From NCBI GenBank assembly GCA_001898145.1, contig MKSR01000029.1:62001-126000 (forward strand): a stretch of 64,000 nucleotides of DNA. The letters are read 5' to 3'. The first letter of the stretch is position 1. Each line of letters begins with the position of its first letter. Positions 33,504-44,846 of this stretch are shown here, in pieces. This stretch comes from Dyadobacter sp. 50-39. GTDB lineage: Bacteria; Bacteroidota; Bacteroidia; Cytophagales; Spirosomataceae. Under the pieces are notes generated by a model that ran no database searches, had not been told where the DNA came from, and was given only the letters and a program-made list of their open reading frames with translations. Position numbers and translations under genes: made by a program.

Positions 33504-33903
33504 TGTGCGAATCCTGCGGGTCCATCCAGCTGATGGAATTGTTCAGCAATTCGCCTTTGAAAGGAAATGGATTGGCTGATAGGAAGCAACCGCAATCGAA
33601 AGAATTTCCCGACCTGTATCCGATCTAAACAATCAGCCGCTTACGACAAAATTGTAAGCGGCTGATTCCATATGGAGAATATCGGATTGGAACCGACGAC
33701 CTTGGCCAGCGCAGCAAGAAAAAAATACGTTCTACTGACTCGGCTGTCGCATTGCCCGGAAGCAAATTTGCTGAAAGATTTAATGCATCGGTATATCAGC
33801 ACGACACAATGTGGATAGACTGGTCAAATTCCGCCGCAGTTGCATTCCTGGTTAGGAATGGAGGCGATAAGGTTTGGACAAACGGGATAACCCATGTTGC
33901 TGC
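33504..33903. other. Intergenic region with att remnant and a gene fragment
   Basis: 400 bases without a complete gene. The middle holds the most diverged copy of the tRNA-Ala 3' repeat. After it, from about 33712 to the TAA at 33905, a plus-strand frame stays open and ends in WIDWSNSAAVAFLVRNGG and a short tail, but has no start. It looks like the end of a gene cut at the repeat. No family recognised. Confidence 0.4.
33620..33702 (-). repeat. Degenerate tRNA-Ala 3' repeat (att-like copy A)
   Basis: It carries a hairpin AGCCGCTTAC/GTAAGCGGCT and then the tRNA-Ala 3' end with GGATTGGAACCGACGACC, where the functional gene has GGATTCGAACCGACGACC. The order and spacing match the two better copies at 41.7 and 44.7 kb. 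It is probably the displaced end of the oldest element inserted at the tRNA-Ala gene. Confidence 0.6.
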
Positions 33904-34743
33904 CTAATGATTTGTTAGCTCAAACTGATAGGTCATTGAAACTGAGCAGAGCTCGGTTAATCCTTCTACGGGTGCCACTTGCTCGGGACCAGGACCAATT
34001 GCGAGTGCAATATGGCCTTCACTGGTAAACAGGCCCGAAGTCGTGTCCAAACCAATCCAGCTAGCACCTGGTATGAAAACTTCTGCCCAGGCATGCAATT
34101 CAACAGAGTCGCCGGAAACTGTGCCCAATTGGACCAAATAGCCTGATACGAACCTGCTCGCGAGTCCTAACCGACGCAGCACCTGAACCATTAACCAGGC
34201 AGAATCTCGGCAGGAGCCAGTCCGCGCCTTCAAAGTCATCTCCGATGATTGAACCCCTTCTTCAAACCGGCGAACATATCGGATGTGATTGCAAACATAC
34301 ATGTTGAGCTTCACCAGGAAAGAGAGGGTGTCGCCATGAAACTTCTCCGTACCGCCAACAAATGCGGAGAGCGCAGCACTCCTATCTACGATTTGCAAGT
34401 AAGGTAGCAGCGCATTTTTGACGATAGCAGGATACAGAAATGGAAAGCACCGAGACTCATCGTCCAATAATACATCGAAGGGGTTGAAACTGGTCTGTTT
34501 AATGTCCAGGTTGACTTCCACAGACATAAAGTCTGTCATGTCGGCGAAGTCGGCCCGAGCTATTTTATTGCCGTAAACATCATGTTGCCAGTATAATCGA
34601 TTGGCAGGCCGCAGCACAAAACTATATTGTTCTATGATCGAATAAGTATCGGGCTGAGGCGCGAGACGGAATCTGTGGGGAGACAGAAGCACCTTGTGAT
34701 CGTAGGCGTAATCTATCCTATGTTTGACTGAAACGCGCGTCAT
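33904..34743 (-). CDS. Transglutaminase-like cysteine protein
   Basis: 279 residues. A bacterial transglutaminase N-terminal domain (to about 150) is followed by the papain-like core. The catalytic cysteine is in ARTGSCRDSAWLMVQ near 180, the histidine in ELHAWAEVFIPG near 221 and the aspartate in WIGLDTTSG. Such cytosolic proteins often accompany circularly permuted ATP-grasp and alpha-E genes, none of which is seen here, so the role is unknown. It is preceded without a gap by a 37-residue lysine-rich ORF on the same strand. Confidence 0.85.
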   Translation of the reverse strand: MTRVSVKHRIDYAYDHKVLLSPHRFRLAPQPDTYSIIEQYSFVLRPANRLYWQHDVYGNKIARADFADMTDFMSVEVNLDIKQTSFNPFDVLLDDESRCFPFLYPAIVKNALLPYLQIVDRSAALSAFVGGTEKFHGDTLSFLVKLNMYVCNHIRYVRRFEEGVQSSEMTLKARTGSCRDSAWLMVQVLRRLGLASRFVSGYLVQLGTVSGDSVELHAWAEVFIPGASWIGLDTTSGLFTSEGHIALAIGPGPEQVAPVEGLTELCSVSMTYQFELTNH

Positions 34744-34857
34744 CTAGTCGCACTTTGAGTTACTATCCCGCTCGTCCTTTTTGTCCGCGCGCTTTTCCAT
34801 CAGGTTTTTGGCGGGCTTCTTTTTGTCGCTTTTTCGTGGGCTTTTTTCTTTTGACAT
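34744..34857 (-). CDS. 37-residue lysine-rich small protein
   Basis: The frame runs from ATG to a TAG that directly abuts the transglutaminase ATG. The product is almost all charged (begins MSKEKSPRKSDKKKPAKN) with no fold visible. The zero gap suggests co-translation. Small basic proteins of this kind often bind nucleic acid, but that is a guess. Confidence 0.5.
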   Translation of the reverse strand: MSKEKSPRKSDKKKPAKNLMEKRADKKDERDSNSKCD

Positions 34858-35014
34858 GGTTTCTAGTTTTGTTGTAAGGTAGATCCTTTTGCTTGATATT
34901 CAACATGTTTTAGTAATTCATGGAGATTCTGTGAAGTATTTGGTGGTGGCTGAAATATTCCCGGGTAATGCCGTTTAATTAGGTTACCTTACAATAAATC
35001 AACAAACGGCCGAA

Positions 35015-44552: not shown

Positions 44553-44702
44553 TTGGCATTTTTACAAGGTATTCGGTTAGCTACTATCCTGAACTAACTT
44601 AATATTAATTGCTGGCGCGCGAAATGGTGAGCTAAAAAAACATAGAATCAGTGGTGGCTGAGTTCGTCAAAGCAGACAAAAACTGAACCAAAGCGACCAA
44701 AA

Positions 44703-44726
44703 ATGTTCGACCTATGTTCGATCTAA
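44703..44726 (+). repeat. Doubled ATGTTCGACCT motif, tRNA side
   Basis: Tandem ATGTTCGACCT/ATGTTCGATCT, 23 of 24 bases identical to the copy in front of the truncated integrase. It partly overlaps att copy C. Confidence 0.5.
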
Positions 44727-44814
44727 AGAAAAAAGCCACTTACAAGTGTTTTGTAAGTGGCTGATTATCAAGTGGAGAATATCGGATTCGAACCGACGAC
44801 CTCTTGCATGCCAT
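44714..44814 (-). repeat. tRNA-Ala 3' direct repeat (att copy C)
   Basis: The intact partner of copy B: 98 of 101 bases are the same. It contains the downstream hairpin and the 3' half of the functional tRNA-Ala and is continuous with the tRNA's 5' half. Confidence 0.85.
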
Positions 44815-44846
44815 GCAAGCGCTCTAGCCAACTGAGCTAATCCCCC
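44773..44846 (-). tRNA. tRNA-Ala(GGC)
   Basis: 74 bases that fold fully: acceptor GGGGGAT/ATTCTCC with two G-T pairs, D-arm GCTC/GAGC, anticodon stem CTTGC/GCAAG with loop ATGGCAT (anticodon GGC), T-loop TTCGAAT, discriminator A. CCA is not encoded. It served as the insertion target for the elements to its left: its 3' half recurs at 41.7 kb and, degenerate, at 33.6 kb. Confidence 0.95.

Follow-up and report, generated by a model that had tools for sequence, protein, structure and literature searches.

The 64,000-nucleotide stretch of Dyadobacter sp. 50-39 DNA analyzed here (the window, whose first letter is position 1) holds a tRNA-Ala(GGC) gene beside which decayed integrative and mobilizable elements (IMEs) have very probably accumulated by tandem accretion. 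The accreted region (30691-44817) would reach from a conserved left flank, a melibiase-type glycosidase gene ending at 30696 (Pfam), to the 5′ half of the tRNA gene. It carries copies of the tRNA's 3′ part, here called A, B, and C from left to right. We compared the window with a set of 48 genomes including its own (7.7 Mb); the relatives are coded G0xx. tRNA genes were called by ARAGORN, domains were assigned with Pfam and the RES/Xre pair by NCBIfam cut-offs, and gyrB served as a single-gene yardstick for host divergence. The tRNA-Ala loci were read in 38 of the 48 genomes; G045 gave no match, and the matching genomes G007, G008, G013, G015, G018, G030, G038, G040, and G046 were left out of this reading.

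In the history that we propose, which comparison supports as far as the stacking of the layers, an element integrates by a crossover at the 7-bp anticodon loop. Its attachment site (attP) consists of a tRNA 3′ half followed by a terminator-like hairpin and arm sites in tandem. The tRNA gene that results from integration is made up of the native 5′ half and the element's 3′ half and hairpin, the previous 3′ half being pushed to the far (integrase) end. As each new element again enters at the tRNA, the layers grow outward with the youngest nearest the tRNA. The integrase and transfer genes would then decay, and the right end would be retained as a component of a functioning tRNA gene. In the window, the element at 41.8-44.8 kb, the last to arrive, is a remnant of this kind: both att sites and a RES/Xre pair are left, and its integrase and mobilization genes are broken or gone.

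The tRNA-Ala gene and its element ends

The functional tRNA-Ala(GGC) gene lies on the minus strand at 44772-44846 and is read as a chimera of the native 5′ half and a 3′ half (44772-44814) from the last element. Adjoining its 3′ end on the same strand is the right element end, copy C (44703-44771), with a terminator-like hairpin (44734-44762) and two arm sites, ATGTTCGA(C/T)CT, at 44703-44724. Copy B (41698-41798, minus strand), the left att of the 3 kb element, comprises a tRNA-Ala 3′ half (41756-41798), the terminator hairpin (41718-41746), and one arm site. Copy A (33610-33702, minus strand) is a degenerate right end with an arm remnant, a hairpin (33635-33663), and the last 30 nt of tRNA-Ala (33673-33702).

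An earlier, sequence-only reading of the window had proposed three such copies of the tRNA-Ala(GGC) 3′ part with its hairpin, and they are real. Against the functional end (44699-44846), copy B (41698-41801) is 96.2% identical over 104 nt and copy A 78.9% over 95 columns; the genome-wide E-values (7.7 Mb) are 9e-43 and 3e-14, respectively, so that neither copy is due to chance. The identity between B and the functional end stops at 41798/44814, which is the 5′ edge of the 7-nt anticodon loop (placed from the position of the anticodon). Copy A retains 29 of the 30 nt of the tRNA end and a hairpin that is still paired, with a two-sided change, while its T-run and arm repeats have decayed. If 41801 is joined in silico to 44818, the product is still called as tRNA-Ala, with one base different because the join sits 3 nt beyond the crossover.

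The comparisons with relatives given below support tRNA-Ala as a genuine integration site with the repeats as element ends, and at least two insertions in the window are supported. Since copies A and B carry the hairpin and arm remnants, each was probably once a right end. The same reading had deduced insertions of different age from the graded divergence of the copies. The minimum of two insertions stands, but divergence was rejected as a clock because the three copies are the ends of distinct elements, which may have diverged before insertion.

The left element end of the youngest layer (41799-41936, plus strand) opens with the junction CCAGATTTT, the window bases directly after the point where the identity of B with the functional copy ends, and closes with two tandem arm sites, ATGTTCGACCT, at 41915-41936. 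The same junction is found in G011, G025, and G027, and identical or nearly identical arm repeats lie upstream of the relatives' integrases. A truncated tyrosine integrase follows (41949-42326, plus strand), homologous to residues 1-117 of 411 (Arm-DNA-bind_5, E 4e-12) and 74.6% identical at the amino acid level to the G011 integrase. Within its own genome this stump matches itself only, and no intact integrase of its family was found there.

Behind it come an AT-rich, membrane-like open reading frame (ORF) of 134 aa (42538-42942, plus strand, 27% GC, no Pfam match over the cut-off) and, on the minus strand, the C-terminal remnant of a MOBV (Mob_Pre) relaxase that has lost its nuclease domain (43040-43609; 39.5% identity to residues 299-507 of a 507-aa Mob_Pre protein, E 1e-33). 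A RES toxin (43613-44131; NF049844, 127.4 bits, cut-off 110) and an Xre antitoxin (44115-44552; NF049845, 97 bits, cut-off 90) complete the minus-strand genes. The gene content claimed earlier for 41.7-44.8 kb is thus borne out, from the integrase N-terminus to the RES/Xre pair, and the broken "relaxase-like" gene receives a family name.

In G012 and G027, the sequence matching 40.6-41.8 kb continues into a complete tRNA-Ala, and the 41.8-44.8 kb segment is absent. Such seamless, intact tRNA genes identify 41.8-44.8 kb as a site-specific insertion, of which G012 and G027 show the empty state.

The right end itself could be traced beyond the window. An arm repeat (one or two copies) lies downstream of tRNA-Ala in 15 of the 38 loci read; in 14 of these 15 it is preceded by a hairpin like that of the window (G006 has arms with another stem), and a full-length integrase is in place at four. 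Arm sites also occur at all nine tRNA-Pro loci read, eight of which were picked because they hold an element, so that this count is not a survey. Among the 23 arm-less tRNA-Ala loci, 15 have other hairpins, including the insert-free G031, G037, and G044.

For the alignment of the hairpin we used 22 selected sequences, namely 20 of the 24 arm-bearing right ends and copies A and B, leaving out three duplicates and G006 (arm sites present, stem unrelated). In this set the 11-pair stem forms in 97.5% of the cells, with two-sided changes in 5 of the 11 pairs; none of 500 shuffles was as good. The hairpin would seem to terminate the tRNA transcript after integration. The sequence-only reading had named it as the tRNA's downstream hairpin; in the corrected reading it appears to be part of the element end and not simply the tRNA's own terminator, 15 of the 38 loci having other hairpins and no arm sites. 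The left att copy in G011 includes the hairpin. Those in G024, G025, and G027 consist almost entirely of tRNA sequence, as would be expected if no right end of this IME family had been present at the site.

Complete elements and the exchange of their modules

The search with the integrase stump gave 22 matches, seven of which were weak (23-36% identity) and set aside. It yielded 14 strong relatives in the 48 genomes, 13 of them open frames of 414-429 residues and one (G043) a split gene. One integrase clade sits at tRNA-Ala(GGC), with four members (G011, G024, G025, and G027), and another group of ten sits at tRNA-Pro(GGG). Complete elements with a related integrase at tRNA-Ala, the second check proposed in advance, are thus found in four genomes. 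All 14 integrases have a 3′ half of their cognate tRNA just upstream, ending at the anticodon loop; for the Pro-located ones this holds in 10 of 10, including G013 and G034. The repeat identity ends at the same anticodon-loop nucleotide in our genome, G011, G025, and G027, and 2 nt farther in G024. Ala and Pro elements have in common the crossover at the anticodon loop, the arm sites, and the terminator-like hairpin.

A scan of genome contigs gave 11 integrase loci, all with such att sites: eight in Dyadobacter, two in Mucilaginibacter metagenome-assembled genomes, where a tRNA-Ala 3′ half lies just upstream of the integrase, and one on a contig labelled Nostocales. The latter (L124, JADEXV010000348.1, labelled Nostocales cyanobacterium LEGE 12452) encodes an integrase with 66% amino acid identity beside a tRNA-Pro att and Dyadobacter-like arm sites, and is possibly contamination.

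The complete elements measure 18.6-38.5 kb and are built on a common core. It starts with the integrase, followed by an ORF of 355-397 aa (in most), a small HTH_17 protein (in many; Pfam on that of G027), DUF5906, and a CHC2/Toprim primase. NikA/MobC, a MOBP relaxase, and an ORF of 178-196 aa (in most) come next, and variable cargo then extends as far as the tRNA. These core domains were assigned by Pfam on the G011 element, and homologous genes are present in the other complete elements.

The elements have the properties expected of IMEs. In G011, G024, G025, and G027 an integrase of 411-415 aa lies by a copy of the tRNA 3′ half, with the tRNA at the opposite end. The G011 element has a relaxase (PF03432, E 3e-32) and a NikA-like protein (E 3e-18), with homologues elsewhere. 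TraG (TIGR03783), the sole conjugation family searched, was found in none of 12 element intervals from 11 genomes. Elsewhere in the genome it exceeds the cut-off in 9 of the 12 genomes searched (our own and 8 of the 11 element genomes), which, to judge from the sequences, is the pattern of IMEs borrowing helper machinery.

Our genome's tRNA-Pro(GGG) (G000:C19:133477-133619, L003) also shows the arm and hairpin right-end signature of the IME type, and no integrase of the family was found at that locus. It is a probable IME scar.

In 300-nt windows, the likeness between Ala- and Pro-located elements is 56-71% within the integrase gene; from the next gene on it is mostly 84-98%, and it drops again in the last one or two windows. 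The Ala element of G025 resembles that of G011 at 85-96% as far as DUF5906 and at 47-70% from the primase onward; in this latter part it is also only 48-69% alike to the Pro element of the same genome. Integrase and mobilization modules have therefore been exchanged separately, and the integrase module appears to go with the tRNA target. G025:C1 itself holds two elements, one at tRNA-Ala and one at tRNA-Pro (3026-3052 kb and 5045-5065 kb), whose DUF5906 proteins are 97% and integrases only 68% identical. The integrase DNA of G011 and G025 is 93.9% identical versus 81.8% for gyrB, which speaks for horizontal transfer.

Overall, we propose with moderate confidence a Bacteroidota IME family (Dyadobacter, Mucilaginibacter) of exchangeable modules. 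In it, closely related replication and mobilization cores would be combined with one of two integrase-att modules, matching either tRNA-Ala(GGC) or tRNA-Pro(GGG), the breakpoint lying where the integrase gene ends. Each element would bring its own tRNA terminator, and the right end would outlive the element in the tRNA gene as a fossil record of infections.

Borders, probable older layers, and rival explanations

To the left, the window remains homologous to its relatives as far as about 30.64-30.69 kb, where the melibiase-type gene ends. G037 is without everything from 30.7 kb on, its counterpart of 30683 being joined to tRNA-Ala with 80 bp between. In the 11 genomes where a single contig holds both the flank gene and the tRNA (our own and 10 others), the two are 0.08-78.7 kb apart: 0.08 kb in G037, about 1.0 in G031 and G044, 5.7 in G009, 7.0 in G012, and 8.9 in G043, up to 14.1 in our genome, 25.3 in G041, 27.2 in G011, 50.7 in G003, and 78.7 in G027. 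Of the remaining 37 genomes, 36 have no match to the flank gene, and in G017 the gene lies on a different contig from the tRNA. By this comparison the tRNA-Ala site is best described as an insertion hotspot, with 30.7-44.8 kb as its accreted region in the window.

The region had been thought to start at 33.6 kb, with the left flank of the empty site there. The actual flank lies at 30.7 kb, and the accreted region reaches left to include a cold-shock gene and two desaturases. G011 and G017 resemble an empty site for 33.6 kb because the desaturase abuts the tRNA, but they were rejected as such since the glycan block is present on the desaturase's far side.

On the plus strand, the leftmost genes are a cold-shock gene (30948-31139, CSD) and two fatty acid desaturases (31284-32414 and 32421-33503, FA_desaturase). 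This stretch, 30948-33503, is absent at the corresponding place in G037, G044, and G031, and is probably the oldest layer. To the right of copy A follows the glycan block (33904-39731), with a transglutaminase (minus), two glycosyltransferases (both plus), and a GH130 enzyme (minus).

Next are a shortened lipid-A-type acyltransferase (39741-40211, minus) with an internal deletion of about 455 bp, a second cold-shock gene (40280-40471, minus), the two remaining ends of a longer gene (40512-40665, plus; 125-181 aa in relatives), and a receiver-domain regulator (40727-41158, minus). Pfam thus agrees with the content claimed for 33.6-41.7 kb. The acyltransferase has 308-310 aa in relatives, and G003, G011, G012, G017, and G027 retain the piece lost in the window; the internal deletion in the gene remnant at 40512-40665 resembles that of its acyltransferase neighbor.

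The glycan block, together with the acyltransferase, cold-shock, and regulator genes, lies inside the att-integrase-att elements of G011 and G027. It belongs to a tRNA-Ala island at 6 of 23 strong loci: our own, G003 (behind a prophage), G011, G017, G023, and G027, the last of which has two copies of the block. In G017 the contig ends inside the element core.

DNA of the block was compared for 12 of the 23 strong GH130 loci. Among G011, G017, and G027 it is 94-96% identical versus 89-92% for gyrB (G011-G027: 94.2% versus 89.1%). The same holds for G027 and G043, which has the block elsewhere (94.3% versus 86.7%), and for our genome and G015 (87.2% versus 76.8%). Since the block is more alike than gyrB in these pairs, it moves horizontally. 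Most likely, the glycan and lipid genes at 33.9-41.7 kb are cargo of an earlier element of the same IME family, and the desaturase block at 30.9-33.5 kb is probably cargo of a still earlier one, marked by copy A. The role of A as the mark of a separate insertion is probable but short of proof.

Several observations weigh against this layered history. Copy A stops some nucleotides short of the crossover, and the 33.7-41.7 kb layer retains no integrase. This layer is therefore not bounded by two clean att sites: its right end B is present, but its left end A has no core. The glycan block lies away from tRNA-Ala at 17 of the 23 strong loci. Our copy is 87.8-88.4% identical to those of G011, G017, and G027, no closer than gyrB (88.2-91.4%), so that its recent transfer is not demonstrated. 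In G043, desaturase and glycan genes are neighbors in the same order, with no tRNA nearby and no A-like repeat, which weakens A as the element boundary it had been taken for. A similar hairpin is still found at 8 of the 23 arm-less tRNA-Ala loci, so that the claim of unrelated hairpins at element-free sites is true of 15 of the 23 only. These eight may be eroded scars, or they may show an older native terminator taken up by the elements.

The G043 arrangement is also an argument for another origin of the older layers, in which desaturase and glycan genes would have arrived as one neighborhood and copy A would be a mere leftover, either from a different insertion or from att copies that recombined with each other. 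We hold this to be possible but on the unlikely side. A desaturase gene beside the glycan block recurs in G015, G044, and G027. On the other hand, the parts of A, namely a hairpin, remnants of arm sites, and 30 nt of tRNA, stand in the correct order and orientation. Moreover, the desaturase abuts the tRNA right end in G011 and G017 at a near-equal distance (211 versus 210 nt), although the intervening sequence is only weakly alike. The module order there is glycan block, desaturase, tRNA, whereas in the window it is desaturase, A, glycan block, B.

Very little speaks for the view that slippage or unequal recombination duplicated the tRNA-Ala 3′ region long ago and that the genes between the repeats are ordinary ones. 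The degenerate state of A and the failure to find an intact integrase of the IME family in our genome would agree with it, but B ends at the anticodon loop exactly as in the complete elements, whose left junction and arm sites are matched as well, and a seamless tRNA without the 3 kb segment is seen in two relatives (G012 and G027).

Equally improbable to us is that prophages made the insertions, although G003 and G027 do have one in the same tRNA-Ala island, with phage genes (a tape measure gene in G027, a terminase and an S49 head protease in G003) and an integrase of its own. The att-like copy at the prophage far end matches the tRNA over no more than about its final 15 nt, whereas B reaches the anticodon loop; the integrase stump of the window belongs to the IME clade, and no phage gene was recognised among the window ORFs scanned. 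Tandem accretion of decayed IMEs is thus the reading that we retain.

Some further observations stand apart from these questions. The prophages of about 42-43 kb at G003:C2 and G027:C42 (loci L049, L057, L058, L041, and L042) have a crossover different from that of the IMEs; as an integrative and conjugative element (ICE) this insert was rejected, its recognisable genes being phage genes. In several genomes the surroundings of the glycan block again include cold-shock genes, desaturases, and a lipid-A-type acyltransferase, which may form membrane- or cold-related cargo. Three similar, terminator-like hairpin/T-run repeats lie at 31159-31195, 40223-40259, and 45827-45863, two of them beside cold-shock genes. 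Finally, two neighboring, near-identical tRNA-Asp(GTC) genes are found at 49271-49447.

Significance and relation to known systems

Within one genus, this single site offers empty, single-element, and stacked states together with an exact crossover, and hence a readable history. The common cores with swapped integrase modules are a natural experiment on how tyrosine integrases change their tRNA target. Even where no integrase gene is present, a retained right end may be the mark of an earlier IME infection, and element loads inferred from integrases alone could thus be too low. A route is also suggested by which envelope-sugar, lipid, and desaturase genes may pass among Dyadobacter species.

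The mechanism, tandem accretion, is known, and the IME family is apparently undescribed in the open-access literature searched, the nearest IMEs being compared by description only. According to the cited part of PMC5704250, the IMEs of Bacteroidota include NBU1 and MTnPi4 (both tRNA-Leu), NBU2 (tRNA-Ser), and Tn6031 (Sphingobacterium, tRNA-Pro). They resemble the present family, as described there, in their tyrosine integrase and tRNA 3′-end target, and NBU1 and NBU2 also in a MOBP relaxase. They differ in that the targets here are tRNA-Ala(GGC) and tRNA-Pro(GGG), with common arm sites and a hairpin.

Islander-type tDNA islands, in the portion of PMC4383910 cited, are likewise marked at their ends by a tDNA and a displaced fragment, and the published crossover subsites include the anticodon loop. 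The algorithm needs an integrase in each island, however, whereas no layer in the window keeps a whole one.

The MOBV stump does not tie the 3 kb remnant to the IME core, of which it was rejected as a part because the core relaxase is MOBP. Apart from the integrase stump, the segment has no match to the complete elements' core genes, and the eight relaxase-family matches of our genome have at most about 35% identity to the relaxases of four elements. The remnant has anticodon-loop core and arm sites at both ends (attL and attR), its integrase is cut after about 117 residues, and only the MOBV stump is left of its transfer genes.

As far as its sequence goes, it fits the definition of a cis-mobilizable element (CIME) given in the cited part of PMC5704250, that is, a decayed element with attL and attR whose integration and transfer genes are lost, as among the ICESt1-related elements of Streptococcus. 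The 33.7-41.7 kb layer does not fit this definition, as copy A at its left has lost the crossover core. The 3 kb remnant, known from sequence alone, differs from the Streptococcus elements in its Bacteroidota host and its tRNA anticodon-loop crossover. It resembles the ICESt1-related CIMEs and their tandem accretion, as that source presents them, in that the remnant keeps its att sites and is stacked with another element at one target gene.

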